Shown here piece after piece: positions 14,502-40,405 of a DNA stretch of 64,000 nt (position 1 is the first letter of the stretch; the number at the start of each line of letters is the position of its first letter). The translations under genes and the position numbers were made by a program. This DNA comes from an uncultured Nitrospirales bacterium (GTDB taxonomy: Bacteria; Nitrospirota; Nitrospiria; Nitrospirales; UBA8639): the NCBI GenBank assembly GCA_951812745.1, contig OX638327.1, positions 2,257,501 through 2,321,500 on the forward strand. Direction: 5' to 3'. The notes beneath the pieces were generated by a model. That model searched no databases and was not told the DNA's origin. It saw only the letters and a program-made list of their open reading frames with translations.

Positions 14502-14583
14502 GATTCTCCTCTTGAAGAAAAAGACTGACTCAGCGATCTCTTCTTGCCAGAAAACCGATAAAACTCTACAAAACCACTTGAAG

Positions 14584-14708
14584 GCAGGATGTTCAAAAAA
14601 GCCGTCCAGCGCGGCCGCAGCAAGCGAGGAGGCGAGGCGTACGTTTGAAGTACGTTGAGCCTCCGAGCGCTGCGAGAACAAAGCTGGTGGGTTTTTTCAA
14701 CATCCTGC
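14584..14708. repeat. 125-bp palindromic intergenic repeat (Nitrospira-like)
   Basis: The ends GCAGGATGTTCAAAAAA and TTTTTTCAACATCCTGC are near-perfect reverse complements, and the interior carries nested dyads around GAGGCG...CGTAC...GTACGTTGAGCCTCC. The element overlaps the last base of frdA. From memory, elements with this organisation and the central 'GGCGAGGCGTACG' are abundant in Nitrospira genomes; this is recollection, not a search result. The strong hairpin with a T-run end could terminate or attenuate transcription between frdA and sucC. Confidence 0.75.
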
Positions 14709-16288: not shown

Positions 16289-16305
16289 GTATCAGGCGCA
16301 CTCCC

Positions 16306-17025: not shown

Positions 17026-17044
17026 GTCCGTTTGGCCTTACTCC

Positions 17045-17173
17045 TTTGTTCCCCTCACCCTACCCTCTCCCACAAGGGGAGAGGGTTCTCTCGTCCCACT
17101 TCTTCTCCCAAGGCGGGAGAGAATTTTCTTCTCACTCCCTCTCCCTGGACGGGAGAGGGTTGGGGTGAGGGTG
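17045..17173. repeat. CCCTCTCCC-type inverted repeat cluster
   Basis: Fills the gap between the aconitase stop and frdB start. Three dyads with 'ccctctccc'/'gggagaggg' arms lie inside outer arms 'cccctcaccc' and 'ggggtgaggg'. It belongs to the same family as 7096-7213. Its place inside the rTCA operon suggests possible mRNA processing or partial termination. Confidence 0.7.
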
Positions 17174-17179
17174 AAGAAA

Positions 17180-19429
17180 TCATGCATTCAAGGCATTCAG
17201 CGCCGAGCCGGATTGAAACCACTTCACTTGCTGTTCGGTCATGCTGTGATTAGCTTGAATCGTGATCTCTTTTCCATCCTTCTTATGAATCACCACGGAC
17301 ACCGGCTTCCCCGGCGCCAAATCGCTGAGCCCGGTCACGCTGACGCGGTCTTCCTGTTCGATTTGATCATAGTTCGCAGGGTCCGCAAACGTCATGGGCA
17401 GAATGCCTTGCTTCTTCAAATTCGTTTCATGAATGCGGGCAAAGCTCTTGGTCAGAACGGCTTTCACGCCCAGAAAACGCGGAGACATGGCCGCGTGTTC
17501 GCGGCTGCTGCCTTCGCCGTAATTCTCGTCGCCGACCACGAACGACCCGATGCCCTTGCCTTTGTAGTCACGAGCGATCTGCGCCATGGTGAGATCCGAT
17601 TCTCCGGTCAACACGTTGTTGCCTTTTCCCGCTTCACTGGAAAACGCATTGTTCGCACCCAGGAACATGTTGTCACTGATCTTGTCCAAATGTCCGCGAA
17701 ACTTGAGCCAGGGTCCCGCCGGAGAAATATGGTCCGTCGTGGTTTTCCCCTTGGTCTTGATCAGCAACGGCAACTTGTCGAAATCCTTGCCGTCCCACTT
17801 GGGAAAGGGCTGCAACAATTGCAGACGTTCGCTGTTCGGAGGCAGATCGACGGCCAACCCCTCGCCGTTTTCCGCCGGAGGAATGAAGCCTTCTTCGCCC
17901 TTGGCAAAGCCCTGGGCCGGCAATTCATCCCCTTGCGGAGGATCGAGTTTCAATTGTTTGCCGTCCGGGGTGGAAATGGTGTCTTGCAGGGGATTGAAGC
18001 CCAGGTTGCCGGTCAGGGCATACGCGGCAACCAACTCCGGACTGGCCAAGAAGGACAGCGTGTCGGCAATCCCGTCGTTGCGACCGGGGAAGTTCCGGTT
18101 AAAAGTGCTCACGATCGAATCGGATTTTCCTTTGACGCCGTCGGCCCGTTTCCACTGCCCGATACACGGGCCGCAGGCGTTCGCCAACACGGTCGCGCCC
18201 AACTCTTCGAACGTCTCCAAAAAGCCGTCGCGCTTCATGGTATGAAAGATCCGTTCCGAGCCGGGCGACACCAAAAACGCGGTCTTGGCTTTCAGGCCCG
18301 CTTTCAACCCTTGTTGGGCAATATGCGCGGCCCGGCTGATATCTTCATATGAAGAATTCGTGCAACTGCCCAACAAGGTTGCTTTCAACTCCACGGGATA
18401 CCCTTTCTCCTTGGCCTCGGCCTCCAACGAAGAAATGGGGCGGGCCAAGTCCGGGGAATGCGGGCCCACGACGTGCGGTTCCAAGGTCGAAAGGTCGATT
18501 TCCAGGATCTCGTCGAAATATTTTTCCGGCGACTCATACACTTCAGGATCGGCCACCAGCATCGACTGGTTGGCTCGCGCCAGGTCGGCGATCTCTTGGC
18601 GCTCCGTGATCGTGAGATAGTCCACCATCTTCTGGTCAAAGGGAAAGATCGACGTGGTGGCCCCGAGCTCCGCGCCCATGTTGGTGATCGTGCCCTTGCC
18701 CGTGGCGCTGATCGTTTCCGCGCCGGGACCGAAATACTCGACGATCTTATTGGTGCCGCCTTTCACCGTCAATTTGCCGCAAATATACAGGATCACGTCT
18801 TTGGGCGAAGCCCAGCCGTTCAACCTGCCGGTGAGCCTGACCCCGATCAGCTTGGGATGCAGCACTTCCCACGGCAACCCGGCCATGACCTCACCCGCGT
18901 CGGCGCCACCGACGCCGATCGCCAGCATGCCCAGCCCGCCGCCGTTCGGCGTATGGGAATCGGTCCCGATGATCAACCCGCCCGGGAAGGCGTAATTTTC
19001 CAGGACCACCTGATGAATAATGCCCGCACCCGGTTTCCAGAACCCGATGCCGTATTTCCTGGCGGCCGATTCCAGGAAGTTATAGACTTCGCGATTTTCA
19101 TCGCAGGCACGCAGTAAATCCTTGGACGATCCCATTTCCGCCCGGATCAAATGGTCGCAATGAATGGTGCTGGGCACCGCGGCTTTTTTCTTACCCGCCT
19201 GGATGAATTGCAACATGGCCATCTGAGCCGTAGCATCCTGCATGGCCACCCGATCGGGACGAAGCGCCAACATGGCTTTTCCCCGGTCCCAGACCTGGGT
19301 CGCAAGATTATCGGCATGGGAAACCAGAATTTTTTCGGCCAGGGTCAACCCACGACCGAACTGTTTTCTCGCCGCTTCCACGGCAGTTGGCATTTTGGCA
19401 TACAATGTTTGGACAAGTTCAATCGACAT
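17180..19429 (-). CDS. acn: Aconitate hydratase
   Basis: Isomerises citrate and isocitrate via cis-aconitate with a [4Fe-4S] cluster. The 749-residue length and the phrases STIHCDHLIRAEMG, IIGTDSHTPNGGGLGMLAIGVGGADAGEVMAG and LGSCTNSSYEDISRAA place it with the mitochondrial-type aconitases, not bacterial AcnA or AcnB. Cluster cysteines are in GSCTNSS and ACGPCIGQW. It is placed between the ATP-citrate lyase and fumarate reductase genes, which fits the carboxylating direction: isocitrate is turned into citrate for cleavage by AclAB. GGAGAA precedes ATG 19429. Confidence 0.95.
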   Translation of the reverse strand: MSIELVQTLYAKMPTAVEAARKQFGRGLTLAEKILVSHADNLATQVWDRGKAMLALRPDRVAMQDATAQMAMLQFIQAGKKKAAVPSTIHCDHLIRAEMGSSKDLLRACDENREVYNFLESAARKYGIGFWKPGAGIIHQVVLENYAFPGGLIIGTDSHTPNGGGLGMLAIGVGGADAGEVMAGLPWEVLHPKLIGVRLTGRLNGWASPKDVILYICGKLTVKGGTNKIVEYFGPGAETISATGKGTITNMGAELGATTSIFPFDQKMVDYLTITERQEIADLARANQSMLVADPEVYESPEKYFDEILEIDLSTLEPHVVGPHSPDLARPISSLEAEAKEKGYPVELKATLLGSCTNSSYEDISRAAHIAQQGLKAGLKAKTAFLVSPGSERIFHTMKRDGFLETFEELGATVLANACGPCIGQWKRADGVKGKSDSIVSTFNRNFPGRNDGIADTLSFLASPELVAAYALTGNLGFNPLQDTISTPDGKQLKLDPPQGDELPAQGFAKGEEGFIPPAENGEGLAVDLPPNSERLQLLQPFPKWDGKDFDKLPLLIKTKGKTTTDHISPAGPWLKFRGHLDKISDNMFLGANNAFSSEAGKGNNVLTGESDLTMAQIARDYKGKGIGSFVVGDENYGEGSSREHAAMSPRFLGVKAVLTKSFARIHETNLKKQGILPMTFADPANYDQIEQEDRVSVTGLSDLAPGKPVSVVIHKKDGKEITIQANHSMTEQQVKWFQSGSALNALNA

Positions 19430-19501
19430 AGGACGTTCTCCGCATGGTTTCCGAGCCCCGATCCTGTTTGCGGACCGGGTCAGGAAAAACCGTCAATGTT
19501 G

Positions 19502-21328
19502 TTATTTGAGTGGCGGCACTTCCCGACGCGCGGGTGCCGCGTAGTTCACCAGATAATTGAACAACCGGATCAACCGGCTGCCCTGACGTTTTTGATCGGC
19601 CCAATGACCAATCAACCCGATGGTTCTGGACAGGACGAAGAACCCGTTCAGACTGTCGACCGGGAATCCGAGATCGACGAGGACGGCCGCCATGGTCCCA
19701 TCGACGTTCAAAATCAGATTATCCTTCTTCGCCGCCGTGATCTTTTCGACTTCCAGGGCAAAATCCAAATGCGGGGTGGCAAGGTCCAAACTCTTCACGT
19801 ACCCGACCAATTCCTTCACGCGTTTATCGGGATTCCGCAGGCTCTTCACCCGATGCCCGATCCCCGGCACCGGCCCGACGTTTTTCTTCATGTGCGTCAG
19901 AAACTCGTCCACGGACATGTTGTTGTCGATGGCATGGCTGAAATACCGGCCCGCATCGGTCACGGCTCCCCCGAATCGGGGACCGATCATGATCAACCCG
20001 GCTGCCACCGCTTGTGACAACCCGATGCCGGCACACGCCCCGATGATGGTGGTCAACGCTCCGCTGACGCACGGACCGTGATCCGCCGACAGGATGATGA
20101 TTCTCCTGATGATTTCGGCTTCTTGCTTGGACACCAGCCGCTTATCCCACAGGAGCCCGATGATGTGAGGAATGTCGTAGCCTTTGTTGATGAGTTCGGA
20201 CGCCGGATACCCTTCATACAAGGGCTCGTCACCCCGGTCATCGCTGATGGTGGACTTGATCAGGGGAGCCACCAGGATATCGCCGTCTTTCATGCCCTGT
20301 TCCACGGTCCTGGGAAGCTTGGGTTGTTCCGCTTCACTGAGTTCGGGAATCGGCGTCACTTCACCGGACTTCACCAGCGCTTCATACGTTTGCTTGATCG
20401 CCGGTCCCAGGGCGCCAAAGGTATCGGGAACGATGGCCCCGGCTTTCTTCAAGGCTTCCGACTTTGCCCGGGCCGATCCTTCTCCCTGGAGACCTTCCTT
20501 GGCGCCGGCGTGCCCGAATTTCATGCCCTTCGGCAGACTTTCCTGGCAAAAACCGGATACCACGGCCAAGAGTTGGATGCGACGTTTCTTCGCGCCGTAC
20601 CATTCCGCGGCCCGTTCCTCCAAGTCGCCGCCCATCTCGCCGACAACGACGACAGCCTTGGTTTGCGGATCGTTTTCGAACATGTCGAGATACGTCACGT
20701 AATCCGTGCCCGGGTAGGCGTCCCCGCCGATGCCGATGGCGGTCGTCACGCCGTCGGCGAATTGCGAGCAAATCCAAATGATTTCATTCGACAGGCCACC
20801 GGACTTCGTGATCACCCCGAAAGAACCCGGACGATAGAGTTTGCAGGCCACCAGGTTGTCAAACGCGCCACCGATTACCCCCAACCGGCATTCTCCGGCC
20901 GACAACACGCCGATGGATGAAGGCCCGTTGAAAACTTTCCCGAGTTTCCGCGCGTACGCCCCGAGCAATTTGGAATCTTTTTCAGGCAAGCCTTCCGTGA
21001 TCATCGACACCACTTGAATGCCGGAATTGTCCAAGGCTTCCTTGGTGCCGGCATAGGCGCGATCCGCGCCGATATAAACCAGGCTGGTATTGATTTCCGG
21101 ATGGTTCGCAGTGGCCTCGGCGACCGTTTTGTAAACCGGAATCGTGAGAAGTCGGTTTCCGCAGACGATTTCATTGGTTTTTCCGGCATCCGGAGGATAC
21201 ACAAACGCCGAAACGTTTAAGGGCTGCTGAATCATGTGGCGGAACTCACCCATTCGCCGGGCCGCGTTCACGCCCGCCACCCCGCCCTGGATCACAACAT
21301 GTGTTTCTTTCGTCGCCAAAATGCTCAT
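19502..21328 (-). CDS. aclA: ATP-citrate lyase alpha subunit
   Basis: Large subunit of ATP-citrate lyase, the key rTCA enzyme that cleaves citrate to acetyl-CoA and oxaloacetate. The 608 residues equal the length of the green-sulfur bacterial AclA. The N-terminal part resembles succinyl-CoA synthetase alpha, with the phosphohistidine motif GMKFGHAGAKEG. The C-terminal part resembles citrate synthase (ACAGIGLSQAVAAGLIMIGPRFGGA; GIGHRVKSLRNPDKRVKEL). AGGAGAG precedes ATG 21328. The stop of aclB is 57 bases upstream, so the two are cotranscribed. Confidence 0.97.
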   Translation of the reverse strand: MSILATKETHVVIQGGVAGVNAARRMGEFRHMIQQPLNVSAFVYPPDAGKTNEIVCGNRLLTIPVYKTVAEATANHPEINTSLVYIGADRAYAGTKEALDNSGIQVVSMITEGLPEKDSKLLGAYARKLGKVFNGPSSIGVLSAGECRLGVIGGAFDNLVACKLYRPGSFGVITKSGGLSNEIIWICSQFADGVTTAIGIGGDAYPGTDYVTYLDMFENDPQTKAVVVVGEMGGDLEERAAEWYGAKKRRIQLLAVVSGFCQESLPKGMKFGHAGAKEGLQGEGSARAKSEALKKAGAIVPDTFGALGPAIKQTYEALVKSGEVTPIPELSEAEQPKLPRTVEQGMKDGDILVAPLIKSTISDDRGDEPLYEGYPASELINKGYDIPHIIGLLWDKRLVSKQEAEIIRRIIILSADHGPCVSGALTTIIGACAGIGLSQAVAAGLIMIGPRFGGAVTDAGRYFSHAIDNNMSVDEFLTHMKKNVGPVPGIGHRVKSLRNPDKRVKELVGYVKSLDLATPHLDFALEVEKITAAKKDNLILNVDGTMAAVLVDLGFPVDSLNGFFVLSRTIGLIGHWADQKRQGSRLIRLFNYLVNYAAPARREVPPLK

Positions 21329-21385
21329 CGAACTCTCCTACGTCTTCAATATCAATATGTTGAAAAAAGTCTCTCCCGAGGGCTG

Positions 21386-22582
21386 CTATTTCTTGGCCAG
21401 GGCCATATCGACGATATCGGTCAGCGGGGTCCGGCGATCAAACACTTCGATATTAAAGCCTTCGTCCTTCAACGCCGTCATGGCCGCCAGGCCCTGCTTC
21501 TCGTTGGGCCCGCCTCGCCGCACCCAAATTCTCACGCCATCCAGTTTCCCTTCGGTCTTGGCTTTGCGAAACGCATTGATAATGCCGCCGAAGGTCTTCT
21601 TGACGTCGGTGAAATTGGCAATAGCCCCGCCCACGATGATGTTTTTGATGCCCGGGAGGGAACAGACCTTGTCGGTCAGGACTTCGACGGCCCAATCCGG
21701 AGGATCGCCGGAATATTCGGCGTAATTGGCCAACTTGCCGCCTCGGGCCACCACCGCATCCGAGTAATACACGCTGGCTCCACCACCCGCCGGCAACATC
21801 GCCGTGTCTCCACCCGGAATTTCGATCAGCTTCACGGAGCCTTTCACCTTCGAGTCGACGGCCATGACCTCTTCTTCATTCTGGGTATAGGCTCGACCGA
21901 ATTCCGCGGCAAAAGGAAAGGTCCAGTCCGGATGACGGAACTTGGCGTCTCCGTCCAACAGGGTCACGGCATCCAGCGCGACCAGTTCGCCGGCGGCGTT
22001 GCGCACCACCGGATTGATTTCCAAATACTGCGCGTCTTCATTGTCGAAGCAAAGGAACAGCTTTCTCGCAAAATCGGCCACTTTGGCGATCAGGTCACCG
22101 GTGAACCCGGCTTCCTTCGCAAGGACCTCAAGAGACGCGTCGGACGGAGCATCGCCCACGACAACGGAGCAGCGTTTCACGCGATCCCAATTGGACTCCA
22201 CTTCAACTCCGCCACAGTTGGCGACCATCACGTCCGCACCGTCGCGGGTGGACTTCACGGCCACGTAATATTCCTCGCTATGGTCCACGGCTTCGGACAC
22301 GATCACTTCCCGAACGGTCAACGTTCCGACGGTCCGTCCGAGCATTTCTTTCGCGGCCGCCTTGGCCCCGTTGAGATCCAGGCCCACCTTCACCAGGCCG
22401 AGTTTAAAGCGCGAACCCAACGCCTCATGCGCCTTGACCACCAACGGACTGTTTTTCAACCAATCATTGGCCTGCGCCAACTGTTCCAGTTCTTCAGAAG
22501 AACCGACCACGGCATAATTCGGGGTTTGCAGACCCCATTTTTTCAACAAGCCCATTCCCGGGCCTTCAAGTACCTTTGCCAT
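21386..22582 (-). CDS. aclB: ATP-citrate lyase beta subunit
   Basis: Small ATP-grasp subunit of ATP-citrate lyase, 398 residues, the same size as Chlorobium AclB. It starts MAKVLEGPGMGLLKKWGLQTPNY. It has the ATP-grasp acidic segment CFDNEDAQYLEINPVVRNAAGELVALDAVTLLDGDA and a CoA-ligase-like C-terminal domain (IIVGGAIANFTDVKKTFGGIINAF). It is the first gene of the rTCA operon; AAGG precedes the ATG. A possible promoter is listed separately. Confidence 0.96.
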   Translation of the reverse strand: MAKVLEGPGMGLLKKWGLQTPNYAVVGSSEELEQLAQANDWLKNSPLVVKAHEALGSRFKLGLVKVGLDLNGAKAAAKEMLGRTVGTLTVREVIVSEAVDHSEEYYVAVKSTRDGADVMVANCGGVEVESNWDRVKRCSVVVGDAPSDASLEVLAKEAGFTGDLIAKVADFARKLFLCFDNEDAQYLEINPVVRNAAGELVALDAVTLLDGDAKFRHPDWTFPFAAEFGRAYTQNEEEVMAVDSKVKGSVKLIEIPGGDTAMLPAGGGASVYYSDAVVARGGKLANYAEYSGDPPDWAVEVLTDKVCSLPGIKNIIVGGAIANFTDVKKTFGGIINAFRKAKTEGKLDGVRIWVRRGGPNEKQGLAAMTALKDEGFNIEVFDRRTPLTDIVDMALAKK

Positions 22583-25485: not shown

Positions 25486-27504
25486 ATGAGACTGACCGAA
25501 GAAATCATACTTCTCTTGCTCAACGAAGACAGCGGCTATCTCGAACCGGTCGCAGGTTGGAATCTGTCGTGCGTGCTGGCCGGCGCCGTGCTGGCAGACC
25601 TTGACCTCGAATCCCGTATCGACACCGCTTTCGACTCGCTTGTGGTGGAGGATACAACACCAGTGGGAGACGATCTCCTCGACCCTGTACTCGCAACCAT
25701 TGTCGGTGATCCCGAACCACGTACCGTCAATTACTGGGTCGAGAAGATCGCCAACACGTCGGACGAGATCCTGGATCAGTCTCTCGACCGGTTGGTAAAA
25801 TATGGAATTCTCGACTATGCGAATGGCGGCTTCTGGTCTCTTTCGCGAAACGCGGCCAATGTCGGCTACAGTATGTCGTCCGACAACGAGTCCAGGGCGA
25901 TCATACGCCGGCGAATCGTCGAGACGATCCTCGGGGACGGCATACCCGACCCCCGTGATGCCATCCTCATCGGTCTTGCCAATGCCTGCGACGCATTCAG
26001 GTTTCTTCTGCAACCGGAAGATTATGAGGCTACACGGAACCGTATCGAGCTGCTAAGCAGGCTGGACCGCACGAGTCGATCCGTCGCCACCGCCGTCGTA
26101 GCGACCTCGGTCCATCGCTCCATTCCGATAGCGACAAAACCCATTCCCAACATCAGCTTCTTGAAAGTGCTCCGCAACGATGCACTTTGGGAAGGCAATA
26201 TGGCCAGACTGCTGGCCGACCTTTACCGCGAGTATGGCCCGGTCTTTGCGGTCAAGTTCCCTCTTTACAGGAAAAGAGTTTTCGTCCTCGCCGGGAACAA
26301 GGCGAACATCTGGTTCAACCGGCATGCTCGGACGAACCTGCGATCGAAGGACACCATGATGGGGATGGAGTCGGTGCTCGGCGCATCGAGAAGCCTGTCG
26401 GGCATGGATGGGGCCGAACACTACCGCATGCGCAAGGCGCAACACATGGCCTTCACCCGAACCCGCATGAACGAACATCTCGGAGATATGTTTCAAGCGA
26501 TCCGGCTGGAAATGGATTCGTGGAACGAAGGCGACGTGCTCGTCGCGCGTAACGCCTGTCGCCGAATTATGTCCGGCCAGGTGTCTGAGCTCATGGTCAG
26601 CCTGAACCTGGCGGACTATATGGACGACATCCTCGCATTCAAGAACCGCATGTTGGTCACCCACGTGCAGAAGGCCTTGCCGAAGTTCTTCCTGCGAACG
26701 CCGCGAATGGCCGCCGCCGCACGGCGCATAGACCATGTCTATTCCATGATCCGGAACTCGCACACGCCGGCTCAGCGCGAAAACAAGCCCCGCGACCTGG
26801 CCGACGACCTGCTCAGCCTGCACGCCGGCGACCCCCAGTACTTTCCGGAGACCGATATCAAGTTTTCGACGATCATCCCGTTCGTGGCGGCCATGTATGC
26901 GGGTACGGCCATGGCGTTCGCGGTTTTTGCGATGTTCTCCAATCTGGACATCTATCAGCGCGTGCGCCGGGAAGCCGAGGCGCTGTTCGCGAACGGAGAT
27001 CCCGACCCGGAAGCCTTCAGGGAGGAAACGATCGACAACGCCCACCGGCTGGTTCTCGAAACCCTTCGACTCTACCCCAGCGTGCCATTGCAACTGAGAA
27101 CCGTCATGAACAATTGCATCGTGGAGGGCTTTGAACTACCCGTCGGGTCACGAGTCGTGCTCGCCTCCACCGCGGTTCATTACCTGGAAGAGAATTATCC
27201 GGATCCACAGACGTTCGATATTGACCGATATCTGCCCGGGCGCGAGGAGAACAAGAAACACGGAGCGTATGGGGCCTTCGGTTTCGGCACGCATGCATGC
27301 CTTGGCCCAAGAGTGGCGGAATATCAAATGGCGATCAGCCTTTTGATGATTGCCTACTACTTCGAACTTGAAATACTCCCGTCAAGCTATCCGCTCAAAA
27401 TCAATCCGTTTCCGACTTGTACCCCTCGCAAAAGCCTCAAATTCCGAGTCAAGTCGAAGCGCCCGATCACTTCAGGTCAACAGGCGGTTGCCAGCAACGC
27501 CTAA
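25486..27504 (+). CDS. GPP34 (GOLPH3-like) - cytochrome P450 fusion protein
   Basis: Encodes 672 residues with two domains. Residues 1 to about 215 match the GPP34/GOLPH3/Vps74 fold (LTEEIILLLLNEDSGYLEPV at the start; ACDAFRFLL near 170), known in eukaryotes as a phosphoinositide-binding membrane adaptor. Residues ~220-660 form a complete cytochrome P450: I-helix AGT at 472-474, ExxR at E525-R528, heme-binding FGFGTHACLG with C605. No transmembrane anchor is present, so the GPP34 part may dock the monooxygenase on membranes. The neighbours (sterol desaturase-type, sterol methyltransferase-type, Rieske oxygenase) suggest a sterol or other polycyclic lipid substrate, possibly a CYP51-like 14-demethylation. 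Redox partners are not adjacent. The substrate is inference; the fusion itself is seen directly. Confidence 0.87.
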   Translation: MRLTEEIILLLLNEDSGYLEPVAGWNLSCVLAGAVLADLDLESRIDTAFDSLVVEDTTPVGDDLLDPVLATIVGDPEPRTVNYWVEKIANTSDEILDQSLDRLVKYGILDYANGGFWSLSRNAANVGYSMSSDNESRAIIRRRIVETILGDGIPDPRDAILIGLANACDAFRFLLQPEDYEATRNRIELLSRLDRTSRSVATAVVATSVHRSIPIATKPIPNISFLKVLRNDALWEGNMARLLADLYREYGPVFAVKFPLYRKRVFVLAGNKANIWFNRHARTNLRSKDTMMGMESVLGASRSLSGMDGAEHYRMRKAQHMAFTRTRMNEHLGDMFQAIRLEMDSWNEGDVLVARNACRRIMSGQVSELMVSLNLADYMDDILAFKNRMLVTHVQKALPKFFLRTPRMAAAARRIDHVYSMIRNSHTPAQRENKPRDLADDLLSLHAGDPQYFPETDIKFSTIIPFVAAMYAGTAMAFAVFAMFSNLDIYQRVRREAEALFANGDPDPEAFREETIDNAHRLVLETLRLYPSVPLQLRTVMNNCIVEGFELPVGSRVVLASTAVHYLEENYPDPQTFDIDRYLPGREENKKHGAYGAFGFGTHACLGPRVAEYQMAISLLMIAYYFELEILPSSYPLKINPFPTCTPRKSLKFRVKSKRPITSGQQAVASNA

Positions 27505-27773: not shown

Positions 27774-28496
27774 GTGGTTGCCCAAATCAATTTCCCATTG
27801 ATTGCAGGCCTGGTCGGCGTCTATTTCTTCTCCGTGATATTCACCGTCCTACAGACACGAGCGGCAAAATCCGAACGATACAAGCAGTATCGGCTCTACA
27901 CGCCGGTTAATGATCCGCTTGCCAACACCAGCAAGGTCCCGCGAACCTTCTTTATCATCCTTTTTATCGCGTGTATTTGGACCGCTTACCTCACGCAAGG
28001 GTACGATTGGGTCATTCATGACGAACCGTCCGCCTTCGCCGTGCTGCCGGTGCAGATTTTAGCCGTCCTTCTGATCTATGATTTCATGTTCTATTGGGTG
28101 CACCGCGTATTTCATCTCCCGTTGCTCATGAGGTACGTCCACTATGTTCATCACAAGGTCCGCTTCCCGACTGCCATAGACGATTACTATCTGCATCCTA
28201 TTGACACGCTATGGGTCACCACCCTGTTTTTCCTGAGCGTCACCATCGTCGGCCCCTTCAACACGACGACCTTTATCGCGACGCTATTCGTTTGGGTGTT
28301 TATGAACAATTCCATACACGGCGGCCTGAACTTGCCCAATCCTGTCTTCAGGCTGACGAACTACTTGGCACGAATGCACAATGTTCACCACGGGAAAAAC
28401 ATGAGTTCAAACTTCGGTTCGTTTTTCCCATTTTGGGACATGCTGTTCGGGACCCATCATAGGAGTAAGAAAGAGCACTACGGTCAGATCAACTGA
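27774..28496 (+). CDS. Sterol desaturase/fatty acid hydroxylase superfamily protein
   Basis: Membrane di-iron oxygenase of 240 residues, related to ERG3/ERG25 (sterol C5-desaturase, C4-methyl oxidase) and fatty-acid hydroxylases. The histidine boxes are HRVFH (110-114), HYVHH (123-127) and HNVHH near residue 203, with a final THH near the C-terminus. Hydrophobic segments occur at about 8-25, 58-73, 88-108 and 145-175. The start is GTG 27774, with GGAG eight bases upstream. It follows the P450 gene by 269 bases on the same strand. It could act on sterols, hopanoids or fatty acids; sequence alone does not decide. Confidence 0.88.
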   Translation: MVAQINFPLIAGLVGVYFFSVIFTVLQTRAAKSERYKQYRLYTPVNDPLANTSKVPRTFFIILFIACIWTAYLTQGYDWVIHDEPSAFAVLPVQILAVLLIYDFMFYWVHRVFHLPLLMRYVHYVHHKVRFPTAIDDYYLHPIDTLWVTTLFFLSVTIVGPFNTTTFIATLFVWVFMNNSIHGGLNLPNPVFRLTNYLARMHNVHHGKNMSSNFGSFFPFWDMLFGTHHRSKKEHYGQIN

Positions 28497-28602: not shown

Positions 28603-29637
28603 CTAAAGGGGTTTGCGAGCCAGGAAACAGTACAACGGCGTGAAGATCCCCGACTTACCGCCCGCGACGTAGGCGTCTGCGGTTCGATCCAGGAGACGGA
28701 CGACTTCCGCGGAGCCCTTCGGAAACAGCCGCAGCACCTCAGCCAGCTTCGATCCTGCGATAAACACTCTGCGGCCCCATGGAATCCTGCACACGAGGTT
28801 ACCCAGCGTCCCGTGCCGCGTCTCCATGGGTTGATACCAGGGTGTGGACGGCCCCTCCTTGACGTCACGGTCCATCCCCTCGATGACCTGGAATCCCGCC
28901 GCTTCGAGCGCACGATTTACTTCCCCGAACGTCGCGATGTCCTTCAGCGCAATGCCACGCATGAGTTCCCGCTTGATGGCCCGGTGCCGGCTGTCGTTCG
29001 GATCGTACTTATCCGTCAGACACATATCCTGACCCCAGAACAGAGCTCCGGGTTTCAGCACACGGAATATCTCCGTGAACGCGCGTTGCTTGTCCGGCGC
29101 ATGGCACGTTGACTCGATGGCATAACCCCGGTCGAACGTCTCGTCTTTGATGGCGCTCATATCCATGAAGCTGCACGTCTCGTAATCGACCATGTGGTCG
29201 AGCCCCGCCTCGGCATTCAACCTTTTCGCATTTGCCAACTGGATTTGATTGATGTTGATCCCGACAACCCGGACACCGGCCTCCCGGACGACCCGGCGCA
29301 TCGGACCGCCGATCCCACAGCCGACATCGACGACCGTCATACCCGGATGCAACTCCAGCTTGGCGATCATCAACCGCTGATGACGGAGTTTGGAGTCCTC
29401 CAGACTCTCCTGAGGCGTGAGGGGAGCAAAGTGCAGGGATTCACCCCAACCGTACACCATAAACTCGCTGCAAAGATCGTAGTAGTCTTTCACCGTTTGG
29501 GTGTGGTCGTACCCGTTCACACCGGCAGCCTCCGGCGTCGCCCGGTCGATCCAGCCGTCGAAGTGCTCCACGCGACGGGTGACGTCCCCCTCCCGGTACG
29601 CCTCTTTCAGCGCGTTCGGTAGTTTGCCTAGTTGCAT
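28603..29637 (-). CDS. Sterol 24-C-methyltransferase-like SAM methyltransferase
   Basis: Encodes 344 residues. The hallmark of sterol methyltransferases, YGWGESLHF, is at 62-70 (compare the Y(E)YGWGxSxHF sterol-binding motif), followed by the SAM motif VVDVGCGIGGPMR (102-114). The second region YAIESTCHAPDK and a C-terminal SMT-type domain (LEAAGFQVIEGMDRDVKEG; PWYQPME) are also present. These enzymes add a methyl group at C-24 of the sterol side chain using SAM. The gene lies 92 bases downstream of a pseudogene on the same strand and is probably expressed from the shared promoter at 30179-30207. The C-terminal segment looks complete. Tocopherol or other gamma-type methyltransferases are alternatives, but the YGWG motif favours SMT. 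Confidence 0.85.
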   Translation of the reverse strand: MQLGKLPNALKEAYREGDVTRRVEHFDGWIDRATPEAAGVNGYDHTQTVKDYYDLCSEFMVYGWGESLHFAPLTPQESLEDSKLRHQRLMIAKLELHPGMTVVDVGCGIGGPMRRVVREAGVRVVGININQIQLANAKRLNAEAGLDHMVDYETCSFMDMSAIKDETFDRGYAIESTCHAPDKQRAFTEIFRVLKPGALFWGQDMCLTDKYDPNDSRHRAIKRELMRGIALKDIATFGEVNRALEAAGFQVIEGMDRDVKEGPSTPWYQPMETRHGTLGNLVCRIPWGRRVFIAGSKLAEVLRLFPKGSAEVVRLLDRTADAYVAGGKSGIFTPLYCFLARKPL

Positions 29638-29729: not shown

Positions 29730-30060
29730 TCACTCCGGACGATCCGGATAGAATTGCCGGCAATACCGTCGATACGCTCCAATCTCCCCGTCCGAGCGAC
29801 ATAAAATGGGGTGGGGCCGATACTGTTTTCGGCCCCATATGACGATATCCCGCAAAACGTCCCGTTTCTGGGCAACCATGATGATTTTGTTCATAAGCCT
29901 GCTGCACAGGCGTGACTGCAGGAAGCGCATGCCGACGTACCATCCAGAATCCGTAGCGCGCGCATCGGGTGCGAACACCGGCAGAAGAAACAGGGCAAGG
30001 ACGGCCGCCACAACGAAAATTTAAGCATGCCTGTTCGGCATGAAACACGTCTCATGGCAT
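29730..30060 (-). pseudogene. Chimeric remnant: OMP signal peptide joined to Rieske C-terminus
   Basis: The 93-residue frame (30011 to 29730) starts with an exact match in type to residues 18-42 of the outer-membrane protein at 35581-36480 (LFLLPVFAPDARA...GWYVG). It switches at VG-MRFL to the last ~65 residues of the Rieske protein at 34390-35466 (SRLMNKIIMVAQKRDVL). The OMP start codon region is recognisable up to about 30054 but frameshifted. It records deletion of an OMP body and most of a Rieske gene in one event. It may now act only as a long leader for the methyltransferase gene. Confidence 0.8.
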
Positions 30061-30443: not shown

Positions 30444-30530
30444 ATGATAGAGATGCACTTCCAGCACACAACCGCCAATGGAACCGACTGGTTCGCCGCG
30501 GCGGCACGCCGCCGGACCGCAAAGCCATGA
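30444..30530 (+). CDS. 28-aa leader peptide coupled to MMPL gene A
   Basis: A short frame, starting MIEMH and ending RRRTAKP, whose TGA (30528-30530) overlaps the ATG of the transporter gene as ATGA. The equivalent frame at 36895-36981 has the same length and the same overlap. Of five base differences counted between them, three are silent and two change a residue (F/L, D/G). There is no good ribosome-binding site directly before the transporter start. A hairpin GGCGG-CACG-CCGCC (30500-30513) lies just upstream, so coupling may be required. It resembles no protein I know. Confidence 0.45.
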   Translation: MIEMHFQHTTANGTDWFAAAARRRTAKP

Positions 30531-32818
30531 GTTCCGAATATCTGGACCGCTACACCGCGTTCATGTTGCGCCACCGATGGCTGGTCATCGCGTCGGCCGT
30601 GGCGGTCATGGTGGTTCTGACGGCCGGCCTCCAATTCATCACCGCCTCCAACGACTGGCGCGACAACCTGGACGAGAACAATCCTCAACTCCTTGCATAC
30701 GACGCCTTGGAGGATACCTATTCAGCGACCAATGCGGCGATGATCGCAGTCGCGCCCAAGGGGGGGGCGGTCTTCACCCGCGAGGCGCTCGGCGCCGTCG
30801 AGGAGTTGACCGAGGCCGCGTGGCGCGTGCCCTGGTCCACCCGGGTCGACTCCCTGACCAACTATTACCACAGCGAGGCGGTCGAGGACGACTTGACCGT
30901 CGATCGGCTCGTGGACGATGCCGGATCGCTGAGCGATGACGACCTCGCGCGGATTGAGCGGATTGCGTTAAGCGAGATCAGTCTCGCGGGCCGTCTCGTC
31001 TCCTACGACGGGCGCGTGGCCGGAGTGGTGATCAGTTTCGCGTTACCCGACGAAAACTCGAACGCCGCGGTGGCCGAGATTACCGACCATGTCCGCAACC
31101 TCCTGGACGAGATCCGGGCGGTCCACCCGGATATCGGCTACCACATGACCGGCGACGTCTTCGTGAACCACGTCATGACGGAGGCGGTCGACGACGACAT
31201 GCGGATCCTCGCGCCGGCCGCATTCCTGGTCATCGTGTCCGTCGCCGCCATCCTTCTGCGCTCCCTGCTCGCCACGCTGTCCCTCGTCCTGGTGCTCATC
31301 TTCGTTATCGGCTCGACCATGGGCGTCGTCGGCTGGGCCGGCTTGGTGCTCAACGCCGCCAACTCCGGCGTTCCGATTATCATCATGACGATGGCCATCG
31401 CAGACTCGGTCCACATCATCGATTCGATCTTCTCCGGTATGAGACAAGGGCTGGACAGGGACAGGGCGATCGCCGAATCGCTGCGCGACAATGCCTGGCC
31501 GGTGTTCCTGACGACGGCCACGACGATGATCGGATTCCTCAGCCTGAACGCCTCGGACTCTCCGCCTTTTCGGGTCCTCGGCAATCTCGTGGCGTTCGGC
31601 ATGTTCTCCGCCTTCGTGTATTCCATGACGTTTCTGCCGGCGCTCCTGTCGGTCCTGCCGTTGCGCGCGCGTCCCGGACGCGCCGGGCAGTCCGCTTTCT
31701 TCGATCGCTTCGGGGCCTTCGTCGTCGCGCGCCGCACGCTCCTGCTCTGGTCCATGGCCGCCGTGGCGGTCGCCCTCATCGCCGGCATCCCCCGCATCGA
31801 GCTGACGGACAACTGGTTACAGTATTTGGATGAGCGTTACGAGTTTCGGCGCGACACGGACTTCGTGGTCGAGAATCTGACCGGCATGGAAAACCTGGAA
31901 TACTCCCTGAACGCCGGGCGGGAAGGCGGCATCACCGATCCCGACTATCTGCGCAAGGTCGAGGCGTTCGCCGAATGGTTCCGCGCCCAGCCCGAAGTGG
32001 CGCACGTCCAGGCGTTTCCGGACATCATGAAGCGCCTCAACAAAAACATGCACGGCGACGACCCGGCCTTCTACCGGCTGCCCGAAGACTCCGAGCTTGC
32101 CGCGCAGTATCTGCTGCTCTATGAGCTTTCGGTTCCCTTCGGCAGCGACCTCAACAACCGCATCAACATCTCCAAGTCCGCCACGCGCATGACCGTGACG
32201 ATGCTCAGACTGAAGGCCGAGGAGCAGCGCGAACTCTCCGTGCGCGGGCAGGATTGGCTCCGCGCCAACGCGTCCGACCTCGCGACCGAGGCAACGGGGA
32301 TCAGCCTGGTCTTCGCCCACCTGAACATACAGAACACCAAGAGCATGTTGGGGGGCACGGTCACGGCCATGGCCCTCATTTCGCTGCTCCTGATCGGGAT
32401 TTTCAGAAGCGTGCGCCTCGGCCTCGTCAGCCTCGTGCCCAACTTCATCCCCGCGACCATGGCCTTCGGCGTCTGGGGCTATCTGTACGGCGAGGTGGGG
32501 AACGCCGGATCTCTCGTGACCGCAATCGCCTTCGGCGCCGTCGTCGACGACACGATTCACTTCATGAGCAAGTATCTGAAGGCGCGTCGCGAGGGCCGGT
32601 CCGCGTCCGAGGGGGTGCAGTACGCTTTTCGGTCGGTCGGTCGACCGCTGTTTACCACGACCATGGTCCTGGTGCTGGGCTTCCTGGTGTTCGCTTCGTC
32701 GGGATTCGTGATCAGTTGGATGCTCGGCCTCCTGGTTGCGCTCACGATCGGCTTCGCGCTGCTCTGCGATTTCCTGCTTCTCCCGCCCTTATTGATAGCC
32801 ATCGACCGTAAGACCTAG
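30527..32818 (+). CDS. MMPL/RND-family lipid transporter (copy A, intact)
   Basis: Inner-membrane RND-superfamily transporter of 763 residues. The topology is the usual one: a helix at ~16-36, a periplasmic domain to ~225, five to six helices to ~425, a second periplasmic domain to ~605, and a final group of helices to ~760. Members of the MMPL/HpnN branch move hydrophobic lipids such as hopanoids, and BstA of Methylococcus carries sterols. The surrounding sterol-type genes suggest such cargo here, which is inference. RND family helix-4 region GVPIIIMTMAIADSVHIIDSIF and the C-terminal equivalent AIAFGAVVDDTIHFMSKY carry the conserved acidic residues used for proton coupling. Translation is probably coupled to the leader peptide. 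Confidence 0.88.
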   Translation: MSSEYLDRYTAFMLRHRWLVIASAVAVMVVLTAGLQFITASNDWRDNLDENNPQLLAYDALEDTYSATNAAMIAVAPKGGAVFTREALGAVEELTEAAWRVPWSTRVDSLTNYYHSEAVEDDLTVDRLVDDAGSLSDDDLARIERIALSEISLAGRLVSYDGRVAGVVISFALPDENSNAAVAEITDHVRNLLDEIRAVHPDIGYHMTGDVFVNHVMTEAVDDDMRILAPAAFLVIVSVAAILLRSLLATLSLVLVLIFVIGSTMGVVGWAGLVLNAANSGVPIIIMTMAIADSVHIIDSIFSGMRQGLDRDRAIAESLRDNAWPVFLTTATTMIGFLSLNASDSPPFRVLGNLVAFGMFSAFVYSMTFLPALLSVLPLRARPGRAGQSAFFDRFGAFVVARRTLLLWSMAAVAVALIAGIPRIELTDNWLQYLDERYEFRRDTDFVVENLTGMENLEYSLNAGREGGITDPDYLRKVEAFAEWFRAQPEVAHVQAFPDIMKRLNKNMHGDDPAFYRLPEDSELAAQYLLLYELSVPFGSDLNNRINISKSATRMTVTMLRLKAEEQRELSVRGQDWLRANASDLATEATGISLVFAHLNIQNTKSMLGGTVTAMALISLLLIGIFRSVRLGLVSLVPNFIPATMAFGVWGYLYGEVGNAGSLVTAIAFGAVVDDTIHFMSKYLKARREGRSASEGVQYAFRSVGRPLFTTTMVLVLGFLVFASSGFVISWMLGLLVALTIGFALLCDFLLLPPLLIAIDRKT

Positions 32819-32914: not shown

Positions 32915-34303
32915 ATGACTACCGACGGGAACAGGACAACGCCGCGGCGCATAGCCATCGTCGGCGGAGGCATATCAGGGCTTGGGGCTGCATGGGCGTT
33001 GCATCATCACCCGGACCGATTTGACTTCCGGCTGTTCGAGGCACAGGACCGGATTGGCGGAAACGCGGTCACCGCCGATATGCCGCAGGACGACGGCAGC
33101 ACGATTCCGTTCGACATTTCCGTCACCGCCTGTATTCCGTCGGTCTACCACCACATCCTGTTGTTGCTGAAGGAGTTTGGCATCGAGTTGCTCGATACCC
33201 GGTTCAACTACAGCGTGAAGTACCGTGGCCGGATTTATGCCCATGATTTCGAATCCGACATCAGAGAGCAACTACAACCCGAGATTGCGAAGTTTCAACG
33301 AATCCTGAGGCGTCTGCACCGGTTTGGTTGGCTGACCCGTGCCCAATCCAAGTTTCTGAACGCCCTCAACCCGTTCAACTACATCAGCATGGGGACGGTT
33401 CTGAATCTGTACGGTTTCTCCGGGGACTTCAGGTACGAGATACTGAAGCCCATGTTCGTCAACTTCATCCTGGCGACGAACGTGTTCGATATGCCCGCGG
33501 CTCTCTTTACGAGATATCTCGAATTCTTCGATATCGAAACCGCCACGCCCATGCAGACGTGGGACCAGGGAACACGACGCATCTACGAGAACCTGTCCGC
33601 CAATTTCCGAGACAAGATCTGCCTCAACCGGCCCGTCCGGAAGGTACGCCGCCGGTCGTCCGGCGTCGTGGTCGAGGACGAGGACGGCGTGAAGGAGACG
33701 TTCGACGAAGTGATCTTTGCATGCAATGCGAACCAGACACTGATGATCCTCGACCAACCCACGATGCTGGAGCGCTACATTCTCTCGTCGATACGTTACG
33801 AGAGCGAACTCCACAACCATACGATCGTCCACTTTGACTCCTCAGTCCTTCCGGATAACGAAGCAAAGCCGCTGACAACGCGGAGCAATCACATAGAACA
33901 ATACGGTTCCAGACCGGACAATTATGAAATCACGTACATCATGCACAACCAGCAGCCGTGGGCTCATCGCTCCGACAAGCCCTGTCTGGTGACCTACAAC
34001 CCGATCAGTCCAATCGATGGACAAAAGATTATCGGAAGGTGGTGGTTTCAGCATATCATCCATGACGTGCGCCACGTTGCATGGCTCGTTCCCTTGTTCC
34101 GCTTCATCCAGGGCAAGAAACGCACTTGGCACTGTGGCGCCCATACGCTGATCAACAGCCAGGAGACCTGCCTGGTTACCGGGCTCGCCGCCGCAAGACA
34201 ACTTGGTGCGGATTACCCCTTCGACGAACCCGAGGCAAGGCGGTGGTTCAATTATTACGGGAGTATCCTGTATGGTCGGAGGTTCAGGAAAGCGAAGGGC
34301 TGA
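32915..34303 (+). CDS. FAD/NAD(P)-dependent oxidoreductase (amine oxidase-like, COG2907 type)
   Basis: Flavoprotein of 462 residues. The dinucleotide-binding GxGxxG is at 17-22 (IVGGGISGLGAAWAL), followed by the GG-doublet equivalent FEAQDRIGGNA. A C-terminal FAD contact reads CLVTGLAAARQLGADYPFDEPEAR. The family includes desaturases, protoporphyrinogen oxidase-like enzymes and the COG2907 group often found with lipid-modifying genes. It follows MMPL-A by 96 bases without its own copy of the shared promoter, so it is probably cotranscribed. A dehydrogenation or desaturation of a lipid ring is plausible but unproven. Confidence 0.8.
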   Translation: MTTDGNRTTPRRIAIVGGGISGLGAAWALHHHPDRFDFRLFEAQDRIGGNAVTADMPQDDGSTIPFDISVTACIPSVYHHILLLLKEFGIELLDTRFNYSVKYRGRIYAHDFESDIREQLQPEIAKFQRILRRLHRFGWLTRAQSKFLNALNPFNYISMGTVLNLYGFSGDFRYEILKPMFVNFILATNVFDMPAALFTRYLEFFDIETATPMQTWDQGTRRIYENLSANFRDKICLNRPVRKVRRRSSGVVVEDEDGVKETFDEVIFACNANQTLMILDQPTMLERYILSSIRYESELHNHTIVHFDSSVLPDNEAKPLTTRSNHIEQYGSRPDNYEITYIMHNQQPWAHRSDKPCLVTYNPISPIDGQKIIGRWWFQHIIHDVRHVAWLVPLFRFIQGKKRTWHCGAHTLINSQETCLVTGLAAARQLGADYPFDEPEARRWFNYYGSILYGRRFRKAKG

Positions 34304-34389: not shown

Positions 34390-35466
34390 CTAGCCGTTAA
34401 CGGAACTCAACTCGATTTCATCCCGGCCTGTCTGCGGATGGTGCTCCGGATAGAATTGCCGGCAATACCGTCGATACGCTCCAATTTCCCCGTCCGAGCG
34501 ACAGAGCAGCGGGCGGGGCCGATAGTGTTTTCGGCCCCAGATCACGACGTCCTGCAACACGTCCCGCTTCTGGGCAGCCATAATGATTTTGTTCATGAGC
34601 CTGGTGCGCAGGCGCAACGGCAGGAAACGCATGCCCACGATCGGCCGCTTCGGTTTCAGTATGTGCCGTACCTGGCTGACCAGCACCAGTTCGACGAGTC
34701 TGCCGTCGATGGGCGTTGCGAGCACCCACAAACGCGTATGCATGTCGATCGCATGCTCGTGAACCTCGACGAACGAATAGCCCAACCCGTGCACGTGGGT
34801 GACGGCGGAAACATCGTACGTGAAGACCTTGATCCCGGCGATGGTCTGGGTTCGTTTGAAGTCGAAGCAACTCTTGAGGTAAGCGCCGTCTATTGAGACC
34901 GGTCCGATCCCGTGCACGCTGTTGTAGCCATGCACGTAGCGCAGATGTCCGAGGTCCACGGAATTCTCGGTCGTTTCCTGGGGATGCCCCGGGAACCGGA
35001 AACTTCGGAATTCCAAATCGGTCCAGTCGGTACCGGTGGGTGGCGCGTCTGGAAGCTCCCATTGCGGCGGCCGGCCGCCGTTGCCCCACCAGGCAAAAAC
35101 CAGACCCAGAATTTCGCGCGTCGGGAAGACCTTCAGTCTGGCAGTTCCGGGCGGCGGCGCATAGGGCGTGGCCACGCATTGGCCGGTGACATCGTACTCG
35201 AAGCCGTGGAACGGACAGACGAGGCAGCCGTTGCGCACGCGGCCTCCGGCTTCCGGCCCCAGTTCGGAGCCCAGATGCGGGCAGATCGCCTCGGCCACAC
35301 AGATGTCCCCGTCCTCGTTGCACCATGCGACAATTTCCTCGCCCAGCCAGGTTTTTTGAAACAACTTCTCCCGCTCGATCGTTTTGCGGCTGGCGATGAA
35401 ATACCAGCCTTCCGGAAAGGGAGAAAGCAAGGGGGGGGCGTTACGCTCGTCTCGACTGGTTGTCAT
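34390..35466 (-). CDS. Rieske non-heme iron oxygenase, sterol-acting type
   Basis: Encodes 358 residues. The Rieske [2Fe-2S] ligands are C62-x-H64 and C84-x2-H87. The mononuclear iron site is N168-x2-D171-x2-H174-x4-H179. The layout and C-terminal domain resemble the single-component oxygenases of steroid metabolism: cholesterol 7-desaturase (DAF-36/Neverland), KshA, and the bacterial sterol C-4 demethylase SdmA. A reductase partner is not adjacent. It is downstream of, and probably cotranscribed with, the outer-membrane protein gene (114 bases). A fragment of a second copy of this gene survives at 29730. The exact reaction cannot be assigned. Confidence 0.85.
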   Translation of the reverse strand: MTTSRDERNAPPLLSPFPEGWYFIASRKTIEREKLFQKTWLGEEIVAWCNEDGDICVAEAICPHLGSELGPEAGGRVRNGCLVCPFHGFEYDVTGQCVATPYAPPPGTARLKVFPTREILGLVFAWWGNGGRPPQWELPDAPPTGTDWTDLEFRSFRFPGHPQETTENSVDLGHLRYVHGYNSVHGIGPVSIDGAYLKSCFDFKRTQTIAGIKVFTYDVSAVTHVHGLGYSFVEVHEHAIDMHTRLWVLATPIDGRLVELVLVSQVRHILKPKRPIVGMRFLPLRLRTRLMNKIIMAAQKRDVLQDVVIWGRKHYRPRPLLCRSDGEIGAYRRYCRQFYPEHHPQTGRDEIELSSVNG

Positions 35467-35580: not shown

Positions 35581-36480
35581 CTAGAATCGATAGCGTACGC
35601 CGATCTCGAAGAGATGAACTTGCATATCAGTCGTCGCCGTGGCCGTTGCACCCATGGCACTTCTGCCGGTGAACTCCAACTGGTTGGATTTTAACAGGCG
35701 GTAGCCCAATTGGACGGTAATGGCATCGGTCACCTCATAGCCCAGCCCTGCGCCGACCTGATAGGCGAACACCGTATCGGTGCTGGAAAGTTCGGGTACA
35801 GTCCCCGGGTCCAGTTTGGCCTGGGCTATGGCCCCTTGTCGGATTCCTTCTTGGACTGCAGGAGGCAGTGAGGCGAAGCCAGGTGTTGCTTGTTGCGCTT
35901 GTAGGACCGCAAGCTCGTTCGCAGCCCCTTGCGCGACCTCGTTACGGTCATATTCCACGTCGCCCCAATCGACCTGGACGACACCGAGGCCGCCGCCGAT
36001 GTAGGGTTTCCAACGGGAACCGGTATCAAAGTCGTACCAGACATTCACCATGCCGCCCAGTTGGTTTGCCGAGCCGGACACGTCGATGGGATGATCCCCC
36101 TCAATATCAATTGTCCCTAGTCCCGGCACGGTAGTGGTCCGTCCCTTGTAGGTCAGATCGCCGATTGCGGCTCTGGCGAAGAACACTTCGCCATCGACAC
36201 GGAACCCTGTGCCGAATTCATAGCCCAGTGTACCGCTGACCCTGAACCCCGTCTTGTACGAGTTGACGGCGTCCGCCTTGTACGGGATTCCTCCCGCTTG
36301 CCCACGCTCGACGCTCTCCGAGTCGTCAATGAACATGACCGGTACGTTCAAGCCGACGTACCATCTCGAATCCGCAGCGCGCGCATCGGGTGTGAACAAC
36401 GGCAGAAGAAATATAGCAAGGACGGCCGCCGTAACGAAAATTCGTCTAAGCAGATTTGCACGATGGAAAGTCAGTCTCAT
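35581..36480 (-). CDS. Outer-membrane beta-barrel protein
   Basis: Encodes 299 residues. The signal peptide (hydrophobic core ~14-30) ends at DARA-ADS near residue 35. The mature part alternates aromatic strands (SRWYVGLNVPVMF; MVNVWYDFDTGSRWKPYIGGGLGVVQVDW) and ends in VRYRF, the classic C-terminal barrel signal recognised by BamA. It looks like an 8- to 10-strand OmpW/OmpA-type barrel. GGAG lies nine bases before ATG 36480. Its position between lipid-modifying and lipid-export genes suggests a role in outer-membrane lipid handling, which is inference. Confidence 0.85.
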   Translation of the reverse strand: MRLTFHRANLLRRIFVTAAVLAIFLLPLFTPDARAADSRWYVGLNVPVMFIDDSESVERGQAGGIPYKADAVNSYKTGFRVSGTLGYEFGTGFRVDGEVFFARAAIGDLTYKGRTTTVPGLGTIDIEGDHPIDVSGSANQLGGMVNVWYDFDTGSRWKPYIGGGLGVVQVDWGDVEYDRNEVAQGAANELAVLQAQQATPGFASLPPAVQEGIRQGAIAQAKLDPGTVPELSSTDTVFAYQVGAGLGYEVTDAITVQLGYRLLKSNQLEFTGRSAMGATATATTDMQVHLFEIGVRYRF

Positions 36481-38078: not shown

Positions 38079-38819
38079 ATGAACACGTCCCTATTCCGCA
38101 CCTTCCTGACAATTCTCTACATGTTCATGCCGGCGGGGACCGCGGGCGCGCAGTCGATCGAAGAGGCACGCATCGTCTATGCCGAGGGCCGCTTCATGAA
38201 GGCCGCCGATCTTGCCCAGGTTCTCGACACCTCCGAAGGCTATGCATTGGCGGCCAATTCACTGGCGATTTACGGCTATTACATTGCGCCGGATAGCGAA
38301 AAGGAAGGCTTGTTCAAGCGAGCCGAAAAACTCGCGCGAAAGGCGAGCCGGCTCGACGCGGCCAACCCGGAAGCCCATCTCCAATTAGCCCATGCCATGG
38401 GACGTCACGCGCAGGTGATGGGAACATTGAAGGCATTGAACGAGGGCTACGCCAGCCAAGTGCGCGATGCCATTCAAGAGGCGCTTCGGCTGGACCCGGA
38501 CATGGCAGCCGCCCATTTGAGCTTCGCCGCCTGGCATGCGGGAGCCGTCAGCAAAGGCGGACTCTTAGCCCGTCTGCTCTATGGGGCGAACGAAGAGGAC
38601 GCTCGCGCACATTTCGAGCGGGCCCTCGAATTGGCGCCTCAAGAGAAGATCGTGCTTTTCGAGTACGCATTTGGCCTTCTGAGCCTGGATGCCGATCACA
38701 ACCGCGAGAAAGCGCGCGACCTGCTCAAACGCGGGATACAATTACCTTCGAAAGACGCCCACGATCGCATCATTCACCGGAAGGCGGTCGAGCGGCTGAC
38801 GGCTCTCGACGGCGGATAA
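38079..38819 (+). CDS. Exported TPR-like helical protein
   Basis: Encodes 246 residues. The signal peptide (FLTILYMFMPAGTAGA) is cleaved near residue 24, so the protein is periplasmic or outer-membrane-associated. The mature part is all-helical with TPR-type repeats, for example KASRLDAANPEAHLQLAHAMGRHA, EALRLDPDMAAAHLSFAAWHA and FERALELAPQEKIVLFEYAFGLL. It is in an operon with MMPL-B and the 50-residue peptide. By analogy with BstC beside BstA in methanotroph sterol transport, it could be the periplasmic partner of the MMPL transporter. The analogy is architectural, not established by identity. Confidence 0.78.
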   Translation: MNTSLFRTFLTILYMFMPAGTAGAQSIEEARIVYAEGRFMKAADLAQVLDTSEGYALAANSLAIYGYYIAPDSEKEGLFKRAEKLARKASRLDAANPEAHLQLAHAMGRHAQVMGTLKALNEGYASQVRDAIQEALRLDPDMAAAHLSFAAWHAGAVSKGGLLARLLYGANEEDARAHFERALELAPQEKIVLFEYAFGLLSLDADHNREKARDLLKRGIQLPSKDAHDRIIHRKAVERLTALDGG

Positions 38820-40260: not shown

Positions 40261-40356
40261 GGACACACAAGGATCTCGGCGTTGAGGCGTTCGGTGGTTG
40301 GGCAAGAGATTCTTCGCCTCCGGCTCAGAATGACCATTCTGGTGTCGGCGTCCCTT

Positions 40357-40405
40357 CATTCGGTCAACGAATCACTGAACACAGACAAGGATGACAGACG
40401 CAGGC
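40357..40405 (-). repeat. Dispersed repeat, copy 3 (inverted)
   Basis: Minus-strand reading CTGTCATCCTTGTCTGTGTT, CAGTGATTCGTTGACCG, GAATGAAGG. It is opposite in orientation to copy 2 on the other side of the IS110 gene, and it shares the GAATGAAGG extension with copy 1. Confidence 0.6.

Follow-up and report, generated by a model that had tools for sequence, protein, structure and literature searches.

The 64,000-nucleotide stretch of DNA analysed here (the window) carries a gene that joins a GPP34 (GOLPH3-like) domain to a cytochrome P450, and since this fusion recurs in two phyla beside genes for making or handling sterols, its product is probably a haem-thiolate enzyme that is tethered to a membrane and modifies sterols by an unusual mechanism, and not a phosphoinositide sensor. 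The fusion itself is real and old.

Both domains matched their Pfam models in frame and well above the cut-offs (Table 1), confirming the full N-terminal GPP34 domain and the complete C-terminal P450 read by the first-pass annotation, the latter also through C605 and the ExxR motif. The linker joining the two halves is short, and by hydropathy the window protein has no segment resembling a membrane helix apart from the I helix. Structure prediction, with the window, L022 and L023 sequences as input (L023 belongs to genome G410, within the second-phylum group of 18 genomes), gave a pLDDT of 35 for the whole fusion protein and 42 for the GPP34 domain. The same annotation had taken the fusion as natural while naming a frame error as the alternative, and the natural fusion is borne out by an intact single frame in ten other genomes (42–77% identity) and in additional second-phylum genomes. 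Both halves are under purifying selection (dN/dS of about 0.16–0.30 for each domain). An assembly or frameshift artefact joining two neighbouring genes could draw on the copy of genome G004 (L022, 97% identical to the window fusion), which is split by a frameshift, but the frame is open in 17 rows from two phyla and dN/dS is low in both halves. Recurrence in 11 of the 14 genomes of the genus and in five second-phylum genomes, together with this purifying selection, excludes an assembly error, to which we assign practically no probability. The G004 frameshift sits within the GPP34 part, and the adjoining FA_hydroxylase gene is frameshifted as well (L022:3214-6216), through error or decay.

Table 1. 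Features of the fusion gene, of its neighbourhood and of other GPP34 fusions (positions without a locus name are those of the window).
Feature	Position	Strand	Evidence and remarks
GPP34-cytochrome P450 fusion gene	25486..27504	+	672 aa; ATG at 25486, TAA ending at 27504, 0 internal stops; orthologues known
GPP34 domain, residues 3-206	25492..26103	+	PF05719, E=1.3e-31, 110.6 bits (cut-off 29.1)
F116-W117-S118-L119, counterpart of GOLPH3 hairpin tip F194-F197	25831..25842	+	profile alignment
Cytochrome P450 domain, residues 226-643	26161..27414	+	PF00067, E=4.6e-40, 138.2 bits (cut-off 22.8)
I-helix segment A468-AMYAGT-474	26887..26907	+	acid-alcohol pair absent; 1 residue shorter than other P450s
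ExxR motif E525-R528	27058..27069	+	invariant in all aligned rows
Haem-binding loop FGFGTHACLG, Cys605	27277..27306	+	H603, C605, G607 invariant
FA_hydroxylase-type membrane enzyme (sterol C-5 desaturase / C-4 oxidase superfamily)	27774..28496	+	PF04116, 95.8 bits
Sterol C-24 methyltransferase homologue	28603..29637	-	PF08498 Sterol_MT_C, 60.6 bits, plus methyltransferase domains
MMPL/RND transporter with sterol-sensing domain	30527..32818	+	PF03176, 121.4 bits; PF12349, 33.3 bits
FAD-dependent amine-oxidase-like protein	32915..34303	+	PF01593; recurs near fusions
Rieske oxygenase with KshA C-terminal domain	34390..35466	-	PF00355; PF19298, 91 bits; recurs near fusions
Outer-membrane beta-barrel protein	35581..36480	-	PF13505; recurs near fusions
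TPR protein	38079..38819	+	copies 70-73% identical near second-phylum fusions
GPP34-Rieske ferredoxin	L094:6065-7006	+	
GPP34-Rieske ferredoxin	L105:6721-7689	-	
GPP34 + four-helix membrane segment	L097:6389-7576	-	one genome only

Our survey of GPP34 fusions took in two phyla. In the phylum of the window organism, GPP34 was present in 11 of 395 genomes, confined to the window's genus and always as the P450 fusion; in the second phylum the fusion was found in 5 of 18 genomes, two of them with two copies. Searched with the fusion as query, the window genome (a single contig of 2,346,994 bases) returned, besides the fusion gene, a second P450 with 24% identity, which sits, as read by eye, between two sulfotransferase-like genes (L002:35-3825). 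Genome G009 holds an extra, divergent fused paralogue (L041, 30–31% identity), which is preceded by a sulfotransferase gene and followed by DruA and a HerA-like ATPase gene (L041:5247-16878). A haem-motif scan matched two loci. Plasmid searches returned no GPP34, and P450s only as stand-alone proteins, while protein scans of viral contigs returned no relative of the fusion protein. The fused-protein tree resolved two subclades, with the window copy among second-phylum copies, and because each subclade mixes both phyla, the tree points to horizontal transfer of the fusion, a reading open to possible mis-binned contigs in metagenome bins, the window genome itself being one contig.

The gene neighbourhood provides the link to sterols. 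Pfam matches in the relatives' loci identified a squalene epoxidase-oxidosqualene cyclase (SE-OSC) fusion, ERG24, sterol methyltransferases, a P450 bearing AGQHTS, the CYP51 motif, and a Rieske oxygenase with a 3-beta-HSD-like protein, the SdmA/SdmB pattern; OSC/lanosterol synthase, CYP51 and ERG24 occurred together in most congeneric loci. Using tblastn with a sterol gene set (SE-OSC, CYP51, ERG24, C-24 methyltransferase, KshA-type Rieske oxygenase and sterol-sensing-domain MMPL transporter), we found at least one sterol-synthesis or sterol-transport-type gene no more than 20 kb away at 18 of 19 fusion loci, the one locus lacking such neighbours being the divergent paralogue L041. The same search found no sterol genes at GPP34 loci without a P450 (0/15) or in control stretches of the own genome (0/4). 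The association between fusion and sterol genes (Fisher, 8.6e-9) was computed over loci that are not independent, and since the neighbourhood genes are kept as a block within a genus, locus counts overstate independence. SE-OSC and ERG24 orthologues were present in 10 of the 11 fusion genomes and in none of the three congeners devoid of the fusion, and second-phylum fusion copies adjoin an SE-OSC or a sterol-sensing MMPL gene.

The window itself places the fusion next to an FA_hydroxylase-type enzyme, a C-24 methyltransferase homologue and a transporter with a sterol-sensing domain; copies of this transporter, 75–79% identical, adjoin fusions in both phyla. The window organism's complete genome, however, contained no SE-OSC, CYP51 or ERG24 orthologue, and its best cyclase match, 27% identical, is probably a squalene-hopene cyclase. 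Lacking SE-OSC and ERG24 orthologues, the organism probably modifies sterols obtained from elsewhere. The window's transporter/TPR set is comparable in kind to the Methylococcus sterol transport genes (PMC10942540). Adjoining the methyltransferase is a fragment (29733-29936, minus strand) that matches the KshA-type Rieske gene over its C-terminal part at 84% identity, a remnant of a duplicated or rearranged Rieske copy. At lower window coordinates, ATP-grasp/CoA-ligase, flavoprotein, aconitase and both ATP-citrate-lyase-type genes follow in series (13317-22582, minus strand), a row of reductive TCA cycle genes adjoining the sterol genes; in most congeners the neighbours of the fusion include ATP-citrate-lyase genes and a PilX-like gene. 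A stretch of 93 bases (40306-40398) is 88% identical, in inverted orientation, to intergenic DNA upstream of the L022 fusion (L022 2854-2946), possibly a small dispersed repeat.

A profile built from the fused GPP34 domains matched no PDB entries other than Vps74 and GOLPH3. The PI4P residues and membrane-inserting hairpin of GOLPH3 have been described (PMC13408441). R90, R171 and R174 of human GOLPH3 align with A32, D93 and L96 of the window protein, and across the 17 close fusion rows their counterparts are A/I/G/V, D/E and L/I, with arginine in none; the other GPP34 proteins of the second phylum, L097 excepted, retain only the R174 counterpart. A tryptophan near GOLPH3 W81 (W25) is retained in the close rows. 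At the place of the hairpin tip, 16 of 18 fused rows carry F-W-x-L, the structure models being of low pLDDT. With the residues of a putative hairpin tip retained and the pocket arginines replaced, membrane insertion by the tip is plausible, while recognition of PI4P through the GOLPH3 pocket is not. Thus, of the two roles first suggested for the domain, holding the enzyme at a membrane would fit the retained hairpin-tip residues, whereas sensing of a head group through the phosphoinositide pocket is not supported, its arginines being replaced.

Within the P450 half, the 'AGT' at residues 472-474 is present in the window sequence, as first annotated. Its reading as an oxygen-activation motif did not survive alignment of the fused rows with 19 other P450s of the same order and the same loci, since the acid-alcohol pair is missing at that place: the fused rows read A-[AS]-[MV]-Y-[ALIM]-G and are one residue short, whereas the others read A-G-[HYQ]-[EH]-T, so that AMY-AGT or SVY-LGD stands in place of AGxET or AGxHT. 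The position of the gap decides whether tyrosine occupies the acid or the alcohol place, and the pair is absent under both. It is missing in 17 of 18 fused P450s, the exception being the L041 paralogue (L-H-T-T). This pair is usual, not universal, among O2-activating P450s. With it lost, the fused P450 may carry out a desaturation, an oxidation driven by peroxide or assisted by the substrate, or a reaction that is not oxidative. Of the lipid-type monooxygenase proposed at first, the lipid-type part thus agrees with the sterol locus, while a canonical monooxygenase is at odds with the lacking motif. The haem loop is degenerate in one row (L099), which may reflect decay. The closest solved relative of the fused-P450 profile is bacterial CYP51, that of Methylococcus capsulatus, with which it shares the haem-loop histidine and a sterol locus. 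Assignment as a CYP51 sterol 14alpha-demethylase was rejected, as the AGxHT motif is absent and the fused P450s form their own clade (100/100 support) apart from the CYP51 of the same loci; they also differ from the Methylococcus enzyme in having an N-terminal GPP34 as partner domain. Given this separate clade, it is the gene neighbourhood that suggests a sterol as the substrate.

GPP34 is joined to other partners in the second phylum. Two genomes encode a GPP34-Rieske ferredoxin fusion (PF05719, 145.9 bits; PF00355, 61.4 bits), the Rieske part of which has the naphthalene dioxygenase ferredoxin as best PDB match; at L094 a weak PepSY_TM-like membrane gene follows it. The membrane segment of L097, with histidines 310, 324, 378 and 392 forming two H-x13-H pairs, may resemble a bis-haem cytochrome b; this C-terminal part had no match in Pfam or the PDB. 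Two stand-alone GPP34 lineages also occur. No nearby sterol genes were found by tblastn at the Rieske, cytochrome-b-like or stand-alone loci, and neither the Rieske- nor the cytochrome-b-type fusion occurs in the genus of the window organism. Frames of 385-684 aa at L095, L100, L106, L108 and L109 were rejected as fusions, as their GPP34 begins at an internal Met and their upstream part overruns another gene. At L095 (7832-9744, minus strand) the stand-alone GPP34 begins, as read by eye, at the end of a PiT-type phosphate permease-like gene on the same strand, and the arrangement is similar at the other four. This range of partners suggests that GPP34 serves redox and transport proteins in general as a membrane or docking module, and its fusion to a Rieske ferredoxin and a cytochrome-b-like domain as well makes it possibly a reusable membrane module for redox enzymes.

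We propose that GPP34 would be a monotopic membrane anchor that uses its hydrophobic hairpin tip and recognises no phosphoinositide, and would keep the P450 at the bilayer, where sterols reside. These sterols would be made by the locus in relatives and likely be taken up from outside in the window organism. The P450 would modify either the ring or the side chain of the sterol, in a step that follows those of the C-24 methyltransferase and the KshA-type Rieske oxygenase or runs parallel to them. As it lacks the usual proton relay, the favoured reaction would be a desaturation, a peroxygenation or an oxidation assisted by the substrate.

Other assignments of the two halves can be weighed on the same data. 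Were the GOLPH3 pocket to bind a phosphoinositide or another anionic head group and thereby place or gate the P450, this would suit a true PF05719 member akin to Vps74 and GOLPH3 that retains W25 near W81. To our knowledge, however, phosphoinositides are not expected in such bacteria. Moreover, none of the 17 close rows keeps R90, R171 or R174, and in human GOLPH3 the R90L change by itself costs most of the Golgi localisation (PMC13408441), which leaves pocket binding very improbable. GPP34 might instead be a docking or oligomerisation module and not only an anchor, so that GPP34-tagged redox proteins come together on the membrane, by contact between their GPP34 domains or via a shared partner supplying the P450 with electrons. 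The two GPP34-Rieske genomes, the single cytochrome-b-like fusion and the monomer-monomer contact made by GOLPH3-family hairpins (PMC4414131) speak for such assembly. We nevertheless judge it unlikely, as these fusions are missing from the window's genus and lie away from sterol loci, and the cytochrome-b-like one occurs in one genome, with a C-terminal part unmatched in Pfam or the PDB. That GPP34 serves P450, Rieske ferredoxin and cytochrome-b-like protein alike as a reusable docking module, gathering a sterol-oxidising electron chain on the bilayer in two phyla, has a slim chance of being correct.

The catalytic half invites a different question, namely whether the fused P450 is still an oxidase or has become a haem protein acting as a sterol-binding regulator or an isomerase/dehydratase-type catalyst. 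The shortened I helix and the pair lost from 17 of 18 fused rows, but retained in the other aligned P450s of the order, would accord with such a change. Yet all aligned rows keep the cysteine ligand and ExxR, and some P450s without the threonine are active oxidases through substrate assistance. Although interruption of the pair hinders normal compound I formation in ordinary P450s (PMC9112060), we regard loss of oxidase function as rather doubtful and retain the membrane-bound, sterol-modifying enzyme as the preferred reading.

P450s joined to a second module are familiar from CYP102, a P450-reductase fusion, and from the Methylococcus CYP51-ferredoxin fusion, in which the partner modules supply electrons. 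The present protein likewise combines a P450 with a second module in one chain, but its partner is a lipid- or membrane-type domain. Relative to GOLPH3 and Vps74, it has the same domain at nearly full length and the putative hairpin-tip residues in common, but lacks the PI4P-pocket arginines, and whereas GOLPH3 as an adaptor is separate from the Golgi enzymes it serves, the fusion carries its enzyme with it. Streptomyces SCO4440 and other bacterial GPP34 proteins share the domain, but not the P450; as SCO4440 affects peptidoglycan dimers (PMC12402492), bacterial GPP34 proteins are, contrary to the initial statement, not wholly uncharacterised, although assigned roles are indeed scarce. Nitrospiria are among the classes reported for steroid gene clusters and SMT loci (PMC9531527; PMC10070321), the former carried by sponge-associated members (PMC9531527). 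The gene set of the sponge-symbiont ERG24-CYP51-LSS clusters (PMC9531527) and of the bacterial SMT loci (PMC10070321) is the same as that beside the fusion in relatives; the window genome differs in lacking cyclase, CYP51 and ERG24 orthologues. A GPP34-P450 turned up neither in PMC9531527 and PMC10070321 nor in the wider open-access literature searched.

Hardly any role has been assigned to bacterial GPP34 domains, and the presence of the fusion in sterol loci links the domain to membrane lipid enzymes, a link testable in one purified protein. The fusion also bears on how bacteria place and complete their sterols, and its P450, devoid of the usual proton relay, offers a way into unusual sterol chemistry. 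If the docking-module reading were true, GPP34 would be a prokaryotic counterpart of GOLPH3 in keeping lipid- or glycan-modifying enzymes at the right membrane. Moreover, if the organisms are sponge symbionts, as the published steroid clusters suggest, the enzyme could contribute to the unusual sponge sterols used as biomarkers.
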